The notes under the pieces were generated by a model that saw only the letters and a list, made by a program, of their open reading frames with translations, made no database searches and was not told the origin of the DNA. This document shows, in pieces, positions 36,670 to 61,478 of a stretch of 64,000 bases of DNA (its first letter is position 1; each line of letters opens with the position of its first letter). The position numbers were made by a program, and so were the translations under genes. The stretch covers positions 1-64,000 of the forward strand of contig JACRHH010000032.1 of NCBI GenBank assembly GCA_016212095.1, in the 5' to 3' direction. Source of the stretch: Nitrospirota bacterium (lineage in GTDB: Bacteria > Nitrospirota > Thermodesulfovibrionia > SZUA-242).

Positions 36670-38147
36670 CAGCCCATTGCCGTATGAACTGCCTTCTCCC
36701 GCGCCAGCGACCGACGCCTGTCGTTGATTATCACGCCATAACTGCCTTCCGGCGTGCGGCGCAGTATCTCGACCTTGCCGTCTCCGCGCTCGAAGTAGGA
36801 AATATTCGGATCGTATAATTTCGGGAAATACCGTCCGCCGATATCCTGATAAAGATCAACGCGGAACATCGGCGCGCCGCCTGATCCGCCGCCGTCGTCG
36901 GAGAGCCGCAACAATCCGTTGTCGTTATAAACGGTATAACGTCCGTGTGCGCTTTTGTAGCCGACGAAGAATTTGCCGCCTTCCTTATGGTAAATGTCGG
37001 CATTGAAGTTGAACAGGTCTCCGTGGACGTCCTCCATGATGGTTGAACCGACAATGCGGTAGCGCTTGCCCGATTCACAGAGCACCCACTCCGACGTCAT
37101 GGTGTCCGGCCCGTGAGTAAGAAGCGTGCGGGTTCTGTCGAGCGCCGAAGTCTCCAACCTTGCGTAATCGGTATGCACAACGCTGTTCCTGCCGGATATG
37201 TCGTGGATGGTGAAGCAGTCGCGAAATGTCGCAAGCGCGTCGTTGAATCGCTCGCGGCTCCATGCCCGCTCGATGAAATCGTTTATGTCGCCGTAGATAA
37301 CGGATGCGGTCTCGAATTCGTCCCTTGAAACAGATGAAAAAACCTGAGGCAAACGCTCGCTGCACAAGGAAGCCCACAAATTCGTATCGTGAACAGTATC
37401 GGAACTGAACACCAGTGTCTCGTTCCCGGTTCTTATTCGGAGCCCCATGGCTGGAATGCCGTGCCAAACCGGCGATTTGATCGCTTCCAGGGTAAATCCT
37501 TCGTCATCAGTGTAGACATTCCGATCCTGATAGAAAATGTCCGACGAAAACGGATAAAAACTCTGCGGCTCCACCCACTCTCCATGTTCCGGATCGCGAA
37601 AGAGCATCCTTGGCCTGCCTGGAACCGTTGGGTTAATGACAATTTTTGCCAAGGCCGCGGGAACCGGATTGTCGCTTCGGTCAACAATGACAAACCGGCT
37701 TACCCCTTCCCCCTCGTTTCGCGAAACAATGCGGTAGCGAGCCTGAGGGCCAAGACGCGTGAAATCGACAAACGCATCGTAGGGAATATCCATGATCCGG
37801 CGGGAATCGAGCGAAAGACTTCGGTCGAGGGCCGGGCCGGATGCCCGAATTATTTCCTGATGCACCTCATCGGTGGTTAAAAGCGACAGCTTGTAGCGGA
37901 AATCGGCGGCGTACTGGTGAAAAAGAGCCAGATCACTGAACCACCTTTTGTGGTCGTCGTGGCAATGCGTTATCAGCAGACCTTTCAGCCCCTTGAGCCC
38001 ATGTCCGCCGATCTGCTGAAAAAGCGGCGCGCCGCAATCGAGCAGGAAGGATGTGCCTCCAACCGTAATGCGATAGCCTATGCTCTTGCCGATGCTTGAA
38101 AAAGGGCCGTAATCGCCCAATATGTCAACAGTTATGCCTTCGGTCAT
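36669..38147 (-). CDS. Metallo-beta-lactamase-fold hydrolase with C-terminal extension
   Basis: The 492-residue protein has the MBL metal motif LLITHCHDDHKRWFSD and a further histidine region, over about 330 residues. About 150 residues of unassigned beta-rich sequence follow (RYRIVGSTIMEDVHGD, FRVDLYQDIGGRYFPK). The start at 38147 (MTEGITVDILGD) is preferred over 38180, whose extra residues look unrelated. It is translationally coupled to the downstream cyclase by TGATG. A role in hydrolysing the cyclase product or a related signal is possible but unproven. Confidence 0.8.
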   Translation of the reverse strand: MTEGITVDILGDYGPFSSIGKSIGYRITVGGTSFLLDCGAPLFQQIGGHGLKGLKGLLITHCHDDHKRWFSDLALFHQYAADFRYKLSLLTTDEVHQEIIRASGPALDRSLSLDSRRIMDIPYDAFVDFTRLGPQARYRIVSRNEGEGVSRFVIVDRSDNPVPAALAKIVINPTVPGRPRMLFRDPEHGEWVEPQSFYPFSSDIFYQDRNVYTDDEGFTLEAIKSPVWHGIPAMGLRIRTGNETLVFSSDTVHDTNLWASLCSERLPQVFSSVSRDEFETASVIYGDINDFIERAWSRERFNDALATFRDCFTIHDISGRNSVVHTDYARLETSALDRTRTLLTHGPDTMTSEWVLCESGKRYRIVGSTIMEDVHGDLFNFNADIYHKEGGKFFVGYKSAHGRYTVYNDNGLLRLSDDGGGSGGAPMFRVDLYQDIGGRYFPKLYDPNISYFERGDGKVEILRRTPEGSYGVIINDRRRSLAREKAVHTAMG

Positions 38148-42964: not shown

Positions 42965-43764
42965 TGGATTTCAGCGAAGACCAGCTTCTCCGGTATAGCC
43001 GGCATATCATACTGCCCGAAATCGGCGGCAAGGGGCAGGCCAAAATCAACGCCGCGAAGGTTTTTCTGGTTGGCGCTGGCGGGCTCGGCTGTCCGGTTGG
43101 CTACTACCTTGCGGCGGCGGGCGTCGGCACTTTGGGCATCGCCGACAACGACAAGGTCGAGATGAGCAATCTTCAGCGCCAGATTGCCCACAGCACCAAC
43201 ACGCTCGGCCACTTCAAGGCCGATTCTGCAAAGGCGACGTTCGAGGCGCTGAACCCCGACACAACCGTTATTCCGATCAAGGAACGGCTGAACAAGGACA
43301 ATATCCTTGATCTGATTAAGGATTACGACATCGTGGTTGACGGAAGCGACAATTTCCCCACGCGCTATCTGGTGAACGACGCCTGCGTGATGACCGGCAA
43401 GCCGCTTGTAAGCGGAGCAATTTTACGTTTCGAGGGGCAGGTGACCACGATCATTCCGGGCAAGGGCCACTGCTACCGATGCCTGTTCGAGGAGCCGCCT
43501 CCGCCCGGTCTTGTGCCGTCGTGCCAGGAGGCTGGCGTGCTCGGCGCGCTTCCGGGCGTTGTGGGCGGGTTGCAGGCGCTTGAGGTAATCAAGCTGATAA
43601 TCGGCAAGGGCGAGCCTATCTCCAACCGGATGCTGATAATCGACTCTTTGAAGATGCATTTCAGAATGGTGAAGGTTCCCAAAAACCCGGACTGCGCGGC
43701 CTGCGGCCCGAATCCAACAATCACGGAATTGCAGGATTACGCCCAGAACGTGTGCGCGCTGTAG
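42964..43764 (+). CDS. ThiF/MoeB/HesA-family adenylyltransferase
   Basis: The 266-residue E1-like enzyme activates the C-terminal glycine of ubiquitin-like sulfur carriers. It has the nucleotide loop VGAGGLGCPVGYYLA, the LQRQIAHS segment, two zinc cysteine pairs (CYRC near 170, CAAC near 245) and a loop cysteine in PSCQEAGVLG. There is no C-terminal rhodanese domain. The ATG at 42964 follows the TusA-like stop; the longer frame from 42931 lies inside tusA. The partner is probably the MoaD-like protein at 45949. Confidence 0.9.
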   Translation: MDFSEDQLLRYSRHIILPEIGGKGQAKINAAKVFLVGAGGLGCPVGYYLAAAGVGTLGIADNDKVEMSNLQRQIAHSTNTLGHFKADSAKATFEALNPDTTVIPIKERLNKDNILDLIKDYDIVVDGSDNFPTRYLVNDACVMTGKPLVSGAILRFEGQVTTIIPGKGHCYRCLFEEPPPPGLVPSCQEAGVLGALPGVVGGLQALEVIKLIIGKGEPISNRMLIIDSLKMHFRMVKVPKNPDCAACGPNPTITELQDYAQNVCAL

Positions 43765-59563: not shown

Positions 59564-59613
59564 CGACAAAGTGATTCTGCTTTTCACCTCTCCACTCCCC
59601 GCCTGACGTTTCT

Positions 59614-59988
59614 TCATTTGAGCAATTGGGACAACCTGTATTTGACCATCTCAATGACAAGCTCCTTGGGGATAGGTTTGTCCAATGGAAATTGGATTGA
59701 TCCTTTGGCGAATTTGTACTCCGCAAGCCGATCAGAGAAAGCTTCAATTACTGACGGAGAGGGATAGAAGCCGATATGTTTTGAGAAGCCGGCAATCATG
59801 ATTTGTTGGTCGCGCTTCCCGCCCTTTACCAAGGCAAAGGCCGGTATCTTGTAATTCATGAGTTCTGAAACATTTGGCGCGGCATGCCAAATACAGAGCC
59901 GTAGCTCTTCAAGCGCCTTCCGGGTTCCAGGAGGTAGATTTGAGATGTACTCATCTACCTCCTTTGATTTCTTCCCTTGCTCACTCAT
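59614..59988 (-). CDS. DUF1801 (YdhG-like) protein, probable gene cassette
   Basis: The 124-residue protein (MNYKIPAFALVKGG, GFYPSPSVIEAF, FPLDKPIPKELVIEMV) is a DUF1801 domain, the fold of frataxin-like/YdhG proteins. An AGGAGG site precedes the ATG. It lies 28 bp after an integron-type attC site on the same strand, where a following cassette gene should start. DUF1801 genes are frequent integron cargo. No attC is clear at its own 3' end. Confidence 0.85.
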   Translation of the reverse strand: MSEQGKKSKEVDEYISNLPPGTRKALEELRLCIWHAAPNVSELMNYKIPAFALVKGGKRDQQIMIAGFSKHIGFYPSPSVIEAFSDRLAEYKFAKGSIQFPLDKPIPKELVIEMVKYRLSQLLK

Positions 59989-60016
59989 CTAAGCCTCCTG
60001 GTGCGCGGTTCGAGTC

Positions 60017-60106
60017 ACATAACGCCAAGGGTAACCTGACGCCGCATATGAACTTGCAGAAACAAATCGGACGCTCCCGGCGTTCAGGTTGACCCGCTTG
60101 TTGTGC
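60017..60106 (-). other. Integron attC recombination site
   Basis: Read on the minus strand the 90-bp site runs from GCACAAC to GTTATGT, core boxes in the RYYYAAC/GTTRRRY pattern with common variants. The arms GGGTCAACCTGAACGCC and GGCGTCAGGTTACCC pair with unpaired bases in the stem, as expected of attC. The intervening loop is about 35 bp. It separates two small same-strand genes whose base composition differs from their surroundings. No intI or attI was found in the window. Confidence 0.7.
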
Positions 60107-60114
60107 TTGCAGTT

Positions 60115-60606
60115 TTATGAATTAAGTCTTTCAAATATCCTAAATACGGAAAACATATTTTGATAATCAAAAAAGAAAAGAATACGGTTGAGTCGTAATG
60201 CTAATGCTTCTCTCTTTTCAATTATTTCATCTCCTGATTTATATAGATTATTATGATTAAACCAAGAAGATGGGCACTCGTCGTTTATCTGTTTCTCATA
60301 GTTATCCCAAGCAGCTTGCAAGCGTAGTCTTTGACGCCTTGGCAGGTTGGGAGTAATGGCCTGAATATTTCTTCTTTGGTCGCTATACAGTTGGATGAAG
60401 ACCTCTCTTGGGGTGCAACTTTCATGAAGTCCTCTAATGTTAATGTCGAGGATGGACTTGGCTTCAATAAATGGTTTTCTGAATCCTTCAGAAAGGCGAA
60501 GGAAATTGTTCTTTTCGTCCCGTATTTTTGCGAATACGTGATAAACGATTCCAAGAAGAGCTGTGAGGATAAGAATGACAATTGCTGGGATTGGAATTTC
60601 TGGCAT
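60115..60606 (-). CDS. Hypothetical membrane protein, probable gene cassette
   Basis: A 163-residue AT-rich gene with one N-terminal membrane helix (IPAIVILILTALLGIVYHVF) and a cytoplasmic or periplasmic helical remainder. Its stop is 9 bp from the attC site, the normal cassette layout. No convincing ribosome-binding site is present, and a frame on the opposite strand (60331-60675) overlaps it. The attC orientation favours this one. No family recognised. Confidence 0.6.
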   Translation of the reverse strand: MPEIPIPAIVILILTALLGIVYHVFAKIRDEKNNFLRLSEGFRKPFIEAKSILDINIRGLHESCTPREVFIQLYSDQRRNIQAITPNLPRRQRLRLQAAWDNYEKQINDECPSSWFNHNNLYKSGDEIIEKREALALRLNRILFFFDYQNMFSVFRIFERLNS

Positions 60607-60683
60607 TATCTATTAGCAGTGGTGGTAATCAATTTTGTATTTATGGTTTGGTATGAAGCCCAACAATATGATTAACTAGTTTT

Positions 60684-60791
60684 CTCGTTATCTTGCAGTC
60701 AGTTACAAGTATTTTCAACGAATTTGCCATTCTCAGGTTGCTTTGCCTTTAATTCTAACTCGTTATTCACGCAAACGGGTAAGATAACGAG
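60684..60791. repeat. 108-bp AT-rich element with 11-bp inverted ends
   Basis: CTCGTTATCTT at 60684-60694 and its exact complement AAGATAACGAG at 60781-60791 bound an AT-rich stretch, with T runs on both outer sides. It may be a miniature transposable element or a long-loop hairpin. It lies in the 350-bp gap (60607-60956) between the membrane gene and cobO. I see nothing else in that gap. Confidence 0.4.
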
Positions 60792-60956
60792 TTTTTCGTT
60801 ACTCACGCTTGAAAACCCTAGAACTGGAAGATCATCCCCCAATGCAACCCCCACGGCGTAATAAACGGATGCCGTTACGATAGCCGCCGGTTATGGGCAC
60901 AGTCAAGCCGAAAATACGACCGTTGATTTCGAATAGTTCGAAGCCGGATAGCGCAT

Positions 60957-61478
60957 CTACTTCTCCACACCCCGCCTTGCCGCGACACCGGCCTTGTAGT
61001 AGTGCTTTATCTCACGCATCTCGGTCGCGAGGTCGGCGGCTTCGATAATGCGCTGGTCGGCGTTTCTGCCGGTTATTATCAGCTCGACGCCATCGGGCCG
61101 CGTCCGTATCATCTCAAGCAGGTCTTCAACCGCAATGATGCCGTAATTGGCCGCCACGTTCGCCTCGTCCATGAAGACCATCTGGTAATCGCCAGACAGC
61201 ATCGCCTCTTTCGCATCGGCCAGGCCCTTTGCGCCAAGCTCGCGGTCTTCGTCTGAAGGAGCGCCGCGCACGAACCTGCCGCTTCCATACTGCCGCGCCG
61301 TCACGAGATCGGCAAACCTTTCCAGCGCCGTCATCTCGCTTGTGTCGCCGTTTTTAAGGAACTGGCCAAAAAACACCTTCATTCCAGCGCCGCAGGCCCG
61401 GATTGCAAGCCCAAGCGCGGCGGTGGTTTTGCCCTTGCCCGGCCCTGTGTAGACGTGAACGCAGCCCTTTCCTATCAC
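60957..61478 (-). CDS. cobO: Cob(I)yrinic acid a,c-diamide adenosyltransferase
   Basis: Adds the adenosyl group in cobalamin synthesis or salvage (CobO/BtuR/CobA type). The 173-residue protein has the P-loop YTGPGKGKTTAALGLA and the VFMDEANVAANYGII and ELIITGRNADQRI segments. The start overlaps the cbiO stop by 4 bp, linking cobalt uptake with cobalamin formation. Confidence 0.95.
   Translation of the reverse strand: MIGKGCVHVYTGPGKGKTTAALGLAIRACGAGMKVFFGQFLKNGDTSEMTALERFADLVTARQYGSGRFVRGAPSDEDRELGAKGLADAKEAMLSGDYQMVFMDEANVAANYGIIAVEDLLEMIRTRPDGVELIITGRNADQRIIEAADLATEMREIKHYYKAGVAARRGVEK

Follow-up and report, generated by a model that had tools for sequence, protein, structure and literature searches.

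In the 64,000-nucleotide stretch of DNA that we analyzed in full (the window), cobO and a histidine kinase gene converge, and a low-GC insert separates their 3' ends. Read away from cobO, it holds a promoter-like site, a short leader ORF, a predicted attI, one complete gene cassette with its attC and a second, truncated cassette (Table 1). GC content is 30-45% over much of the insert compared with about 57-60% in its surroundings, and the first cassette gene is, as an earlier note on this DNA had described it, AT-rich and of no known family. In G002, a genome of the same family, a response regulator comes immediately after cobO and none of the insert genes is present there, and no close homologue of either cassette gene turned up in 230 class genomes. 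The conserved gene order in relatives that the earlier note held would speak against an integron origin was thus looked for and not found.

Table 1. Features of the interval between cobO and the histidine kinase gene, in window coordinates
Feature	Position	Strand	Description
cobO 3' end, first copy of 19-bp near-direct repeat	60959-60977	-	AGGCGGGGTGTGGAGAAGT; 17/19 identical to 59586-59604
Promoter-like site, probable cassette promoter	60877-60906	-	TTGACT-18-TATCGT; consensus match; start of promoter+leader half of dispersed unit
Putative leader ORF	60699-60842	-	47 codons, TTG start, TGA stop; read from sequence; spans most of attI
Predicted attI	60661-60807	-	Crossover G(60664)|TT(60663); R2 match 60663-60807, E=1.2e-16
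Cassette 1	60023-60663	-	From TTGGGC... to G of R' GTTATGT; ends matching
163-aa protein, cassette 1 cargo	60115-60606	-	Hydrophobic N-terminus; no Pfam or PADLOC family
attC of cassette 1	60017-60106	-	R'' GCACAAC, L'' GGGTCAACCTGAACGCC, L' GGCGTCAGGTTACCC, R' GTTATGT
Cassette 2, truncated	59604-60022	-	Starts TTATGTGAC, stops 4 nt into own R'' box (AAACGTCA), attC lost
DUF1801 protein, 124 aa, cassette 2 cargo	59614-59988	-	Pfam PF08818, E=3.9e-12
cobO 3'-end repeat, second copy	59586-59604	-	AGGCGGGGAGTGGAGAGGT; begins at cassette 2 breakpoint

The attC was called by a structural scan for RNNNAAC...GTTRNRY boxes with paired arms, run over the 64-kb window, calibrated by dinucleotide shuffles and used in place of an attC covariance model. 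The site scored 36 and was the only one at or above 27, the runner-up reaching 22; of 4083 dinucleotide shuffles made from the whole window, 5 attained a score of 36. Its R'' and R' boxes pair at six of seven positions, GTT stands at the crossover, and the L''/L' arms form approximately 16 bp with two extrahelical bases, so that the core features of an attC, including one-sided extrahelical bases, are present. Because both of these bases fall in the L'' arm, the site is oriented on the minus strand, like the cassette genes; in this class, attCs from intI-linked arrays show the same placement. The R'' box begins 8 nt past the stop of the 163-aa gene, just beyond it as the earlier note had placed it, although that note gave 9 bp, and the DUF1801 gene follows directly after the attC. 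An Rfam scan of the 64-kb window gave zero matches, and the own-lineage attC pattern CTGAACG..CGTCAG gave seven, among which the window site alone was accepted as an attC. The scan, the arm pairing and the position between two cassettes confirm the site claimed here; the attC is real and better than chance.

Folding places the recombining (+) strand in the canonical hairpin, but its energy is not extreme (z -1.25 and -1.83), and because 10 of 200 shuffles fold equally well in the second of these comparisons, folding energy alone is no proof of an attC. An ordinary intergenic hairpin between two chromosomal genes would show just such an unremarkable energy. That explanation is nevertheless refuted by the unconserved gene order, by the presence of an attI and by a cassette that recurs across phyla with exact ends.

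Both cassettes proposed earlier could be traced to their ends, with the attC at their junction. The ends of cassette 1 agree at eight of nine positions (start GTTGGGCTT, end AAGCACAAC), and its 163-aa protein has no convincing homologue among the 230 class genomes. The second gene does encode a DUF1801 protein, as had been suggested from the sequence. Copies 88-92% identical to it occur in metagenome-assembled genomes (MAGs) of Gammaproteobacteria, Proteobacteria and Acidobacteria, and the best identity within the window's own class is 46% (230 genomes). At the DNA level this cassette shares 88-90% homology with three MAG cassettes, the homology starting 1 nt ahead of the G of GTTATGT in two of these and 5 nt ahead of that G in the remaining one. 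That the same core-site-bounded ends recur in unrelated genomes marks this segment as a cassette. In the window the homology ends at AAACGTCA, whereas L048 and L049 carry on as ACGTCACATAAC (CATAAC...), which is the R'' box of the attC belonging to this cassette and pairs 10/10 with the start GTTATGTGAC. Since the homology stops 4 nt into R'', the window copy has lost its attC by a break there; cassette 1 retains an attC after its gene, and cassette 2 does not. Without one, cassette 2 is no longer able to leave as a normal cassette and is probably fixed in place.

The sequence between cobO and cassette 1 proved to be a dispersed repeat in its own genome (G000). We built two models: R1 from four own-genome copies of the attI, and R2 from 13 foreign copies only, making it independent of the first. 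R1 has matches in further families of the class, and these sites adjoin intI divergently in G174 (near-full gene) and G151 (partial gene, at a contig edge); intI remnants adjoin homologous sites in G163 and G179, and at several of the foreign loci GTT, a gene and an attC come after the site. R2 in turn recovers the window site and four more own copies, and its total of five in G000 is the highest across the 230 class genomes, ahead of G026 (four) and G189 (three). By these three tests, namely R1 sites beside intI, a cassette and attC downstream, and the return search with R2, the repeat is identified, on homology, as an attI. The earlier note, which read the locus as attC sites and cassettes without an integrase, was right about the attC and overlooked this attI, the promoter-like site and the leader ORF. 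Most solo attI sites of other genomes likewise have no intI within the 1.5 kb examined. In G026, the copies lie at C33:34213-34315 and 37993-38112 (3.8 kb apart on one strand) and twice on C72, and the two that were compared are sisters in the tree (0.985).

The window attI would be a putative site of binding and recombination by its cognate IntI, and the promoter is putatively active. The promoter-like site is a consensus match only, two being found compared with 2.7 in shuffles, and it is conserved in the dispersed copies. The C21 and C36 copies share the start of the leader ORF, the G-rich stretch preceding it and its frame, while the length differs.

Scoring of 150 candidates with R1 gave a complete count of nine units in G000, six of which contain the attI part (C26, which is the window, C20, C36, C2, C21 and C5) and three the promoter and leader part alone (C15, C17 and C7). 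Read in the direction of the cassettes, the unit consists of TTGACT-18-TATCGT followed by a G-rich stretch and a short ORF, and after these ...TAACGA...AATAACGAGTTAG...GATAACGAGAAAACTAGTTAATCA..TTG|TT. The gene that follows is different at every locus. A GTT junction with the first cassette is found at C26, C2, C20, C21 and C5 and is absent at C36, and a cassette with an attC stands behind the attI at at least three of the six copies. At C2, the attI is followed by GTTATGTTAACA..., a 177-aa DUF2059 gene and an attC with an R'' that agrees with the start of the cassette at 11 of 12 positions; at C20 (attI 43514-43655), by GTTATCC..., a 575-aa gene that is AIPR-like by eye, and the attC GGATAAC...GTTAGGC. 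Both loci thus hold complete attCs and cassettes with matching ends. C21 continues with GTTGGGC..., a small gene and a transposase-like ORF at the contig end, and C5 with GTTGAAT and then a HARE-HTH protein; no attC was recognized behind the C5 and C36 copies. Approximately 2 kb downstream of the C20 attI, a second cassette carries BrnT toxin/BrnA antitoxin-like genes and then a HigB/RelE-like gene (by eye).

The own attI copies are 56-79% identical, and the five compared form one clade (support 0.993). Four share a common 5' half with a common left edge at TTGAC, no intI sequence lies upstream of these four, and the units show no clear terminal repeats. On their identities and tree, these copies are an old, lineage-specific amplification. 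The 19-bp near-direct repeat (17/19) that flanks the window insert has a counterpart in a 19/21 pair flanking the C2 unit. A target-site duplication was considered for this repeat and dropped, because among the seven loci tested a comparable pair occurred only at C2; the approximately 20-bp direct repeats at the two loci may be coincidental. Neither the insert nor the attI had a match in plasmid and phage collections, and the attI core had no exact match in IMG/VR.

We considered whether the copies might be several complete integrons that each lost intI independently by decay. The intI remnants beside attI in G163 and G179 would suit such a history, as would the two or three intI genes that some class genomes carry, yet the shared 5' half with its left edge at TTGAC, free of upstream intI sequence, and the single clade argue for one intI-less unit that was copied rather than for several integrons decaying alike. 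We consider independent decay improbable. Even less probable, and in our view very unlikely, is that the repeat is an unrelated promoter or REP-like element containing a good attG-like target for IntI, the cassettes being stray insertions rather than integrons. The promoter and leader half does occur alone at G000:C15:19749-19826, C17:48232-48311 and C7:44892-44950, and numerous non-att sites are reported to receive cassettes through IntI (Loot et al. 2024, cited in PMC12444791). However, the 3' half up to the crossover is homologous to foreign sites that lie divergently beside intI, with attI-type first cassettes downstream. Of the solo halves, that at C7 precedes a DrmC-like gene (PADLOC, E=4e-14) and that at C15 a lipoprotein-like gene.

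No integrase is encoded at the locus, in agreement with the earlier note, and the search for intI in the rest of the genome that it had called for returned nothing over the cut-off. G000 is a 39-contig draft of 2.97 Mb, called 100% complete, in which the best match to TIGR02249 reached 67.9 bits against a cut-off of 265; the sub-threshold tyrosine recombinases are XerC-like (288 aa), XerD-like (about 295 aa) and a C-terminal fragment. Across the class, intI exceeds the cut-off in 73 of 230 genomes, both same-family genomes among them. Two contigs of G000 end in cassette arrays: C27 terminates in a group IIC intron (RF02001) within an array holding a Fic cassette (ends 9/9), and C21 terminates just after its attI and one gene, next to the transposase-like ORF. 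The intI may therefore be unassembled. A normal integron could reside on such a missing contig, the scattered attI copies being satellites served in trans. Assemblies often break at integron arrays (PMC9024848), and this arrangement would also accord with the intact attC and cassette ends at C26 and with the intI of both same-family genomes, whereas the failure of any intI to pass the cut-off in 2.97 Mb called 100% complete counts against it. We regard it as a serious contender that falls somewhat short of even odds.

The locus is, we conclude with good confidence, a minimal integron without intI and one of six attI loci of a single scattered intragenomic family, with varied cassettes behind the copies. 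The structure of the sites, the crossover points, the matching cassette ends, the homology of the attI to intI-linked sites and the clade of own copies were all read from the sequence and point to this assignment. We infer that the promoter-leader-attI unit was duplicated within the chromosome in this lineage, and that the IntI of the lineage, acting in trans, would have loaded free cassettes into the copies by attI x attC recombination at G|TT. The intI would afterwards have been lost, or would sit in an unassembled array; the attC of cassette 2 would have been removed by deletion, and the unit's promoter, with its leader, would now drive the first gene. More tentatively, and at clearly less than even odds, the dispersed units may be separate landing pads that an integrase acting in trans (lost, unassembled or supplied from outside) loads with different cassettes, so that capture and expression would take place at many loci rather than in a single array.

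Because attI normally adjoins its integrase gene, its occurrence in the window and at five other places is unusual. The locus shares with an intI-attI-cassette integron an attI-like sequence with a promoter-like site, G|TT joins, an attC after the first cassette and the usual cargo, but it differs in that both the locus and the genome have no detected intI, the attI occurs six times rather than beside intI as in G174 and G151, and only one complete and one truncated cassette are present. Class 1 integrons likewise have a short ORF, the ORF-11 leader, that overlaps attI1 ahead of the first cassette; the predicted leader ORF of the window is unrelated to it in sequence. The earlier note had proposed a CALIN, and an attC, two cassettes and no neighboring integrase are indeed found. 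IntegronFinder 2 defines a CALIN as at least two clustered attC sites (PMC9024848), however, and with one attC, a second cassette without any, and an attI and promoter-like site in place, the locus lies outside that definition. Lacking intI, it is not a complete integron either; with its attI and promoter-like site, it is an integron that has no integrase and not a stray cluster of attC sites. Delta-attI-type cassettes likewise carry attI sequence away from intI, but in those, behind a resistance gene inside an array, a shortened attI (most commonly 14-18 nt of attI1) takes the place of the attC (PMC12901181), whereas here an attI of approximately 147 nt, preceded by a promoter-like site, occurs by itself at separate places in the chromosome. 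Insertion at attG sites also yields isolated chromosomal cassettes away from an integron; as the citing passage of PMC12444791 presents them (Loot et al. 2024), attG sites are neither attI nor attC, and every insertion here follows a homologous attI.

The attC, the cassettes and integrase loss are already known. For dispersed or orphan attI units without detected intI, we found no report in the open literature, outside which most subscription journals lie. Integrons are located via intI and attC, and attI is seldom searched because it differs between lineages; here, an attI model from one genome without detected intI located intI-linked attI sites in other families. If the dispersed copies are working landing pads, the one-site picture of the integron would be incomplete, and real attI sites would have been the point of loading for some of the "stray" cassettes that are now explained by random attG insertion or by decay.

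Several further features were observed. The open frames of IntI in the class (L056-L066, class search) are mostly about 415-550 aa long compared with 315 model positions, and the predicted proteins, 428-487 aa in length, point to an extension at the N-terminus. The Fic-family cassette (SoFic/PDC-S04-like, PADLOC) spans L007:1440-2682 (G000:C27 33335-34577) with matching ends GTTATGCGC/GCGCATAAC; its 3' attC is without L' and R', and the group IIC intron (RF02001) faces the cassette and runs off the contig. A piece of 54 bp that matches the 5' end of this intron at 89% identity (L093, G000:C18 46717-46770) adjoins another gene with a Fic motif (HPFLDGNGRIGR). Outside the window, a cobalamin riboswitch (RF00174, 88 bits) lies on the minus strand at L045:12390-12560 (G000:C26 72389-72559).
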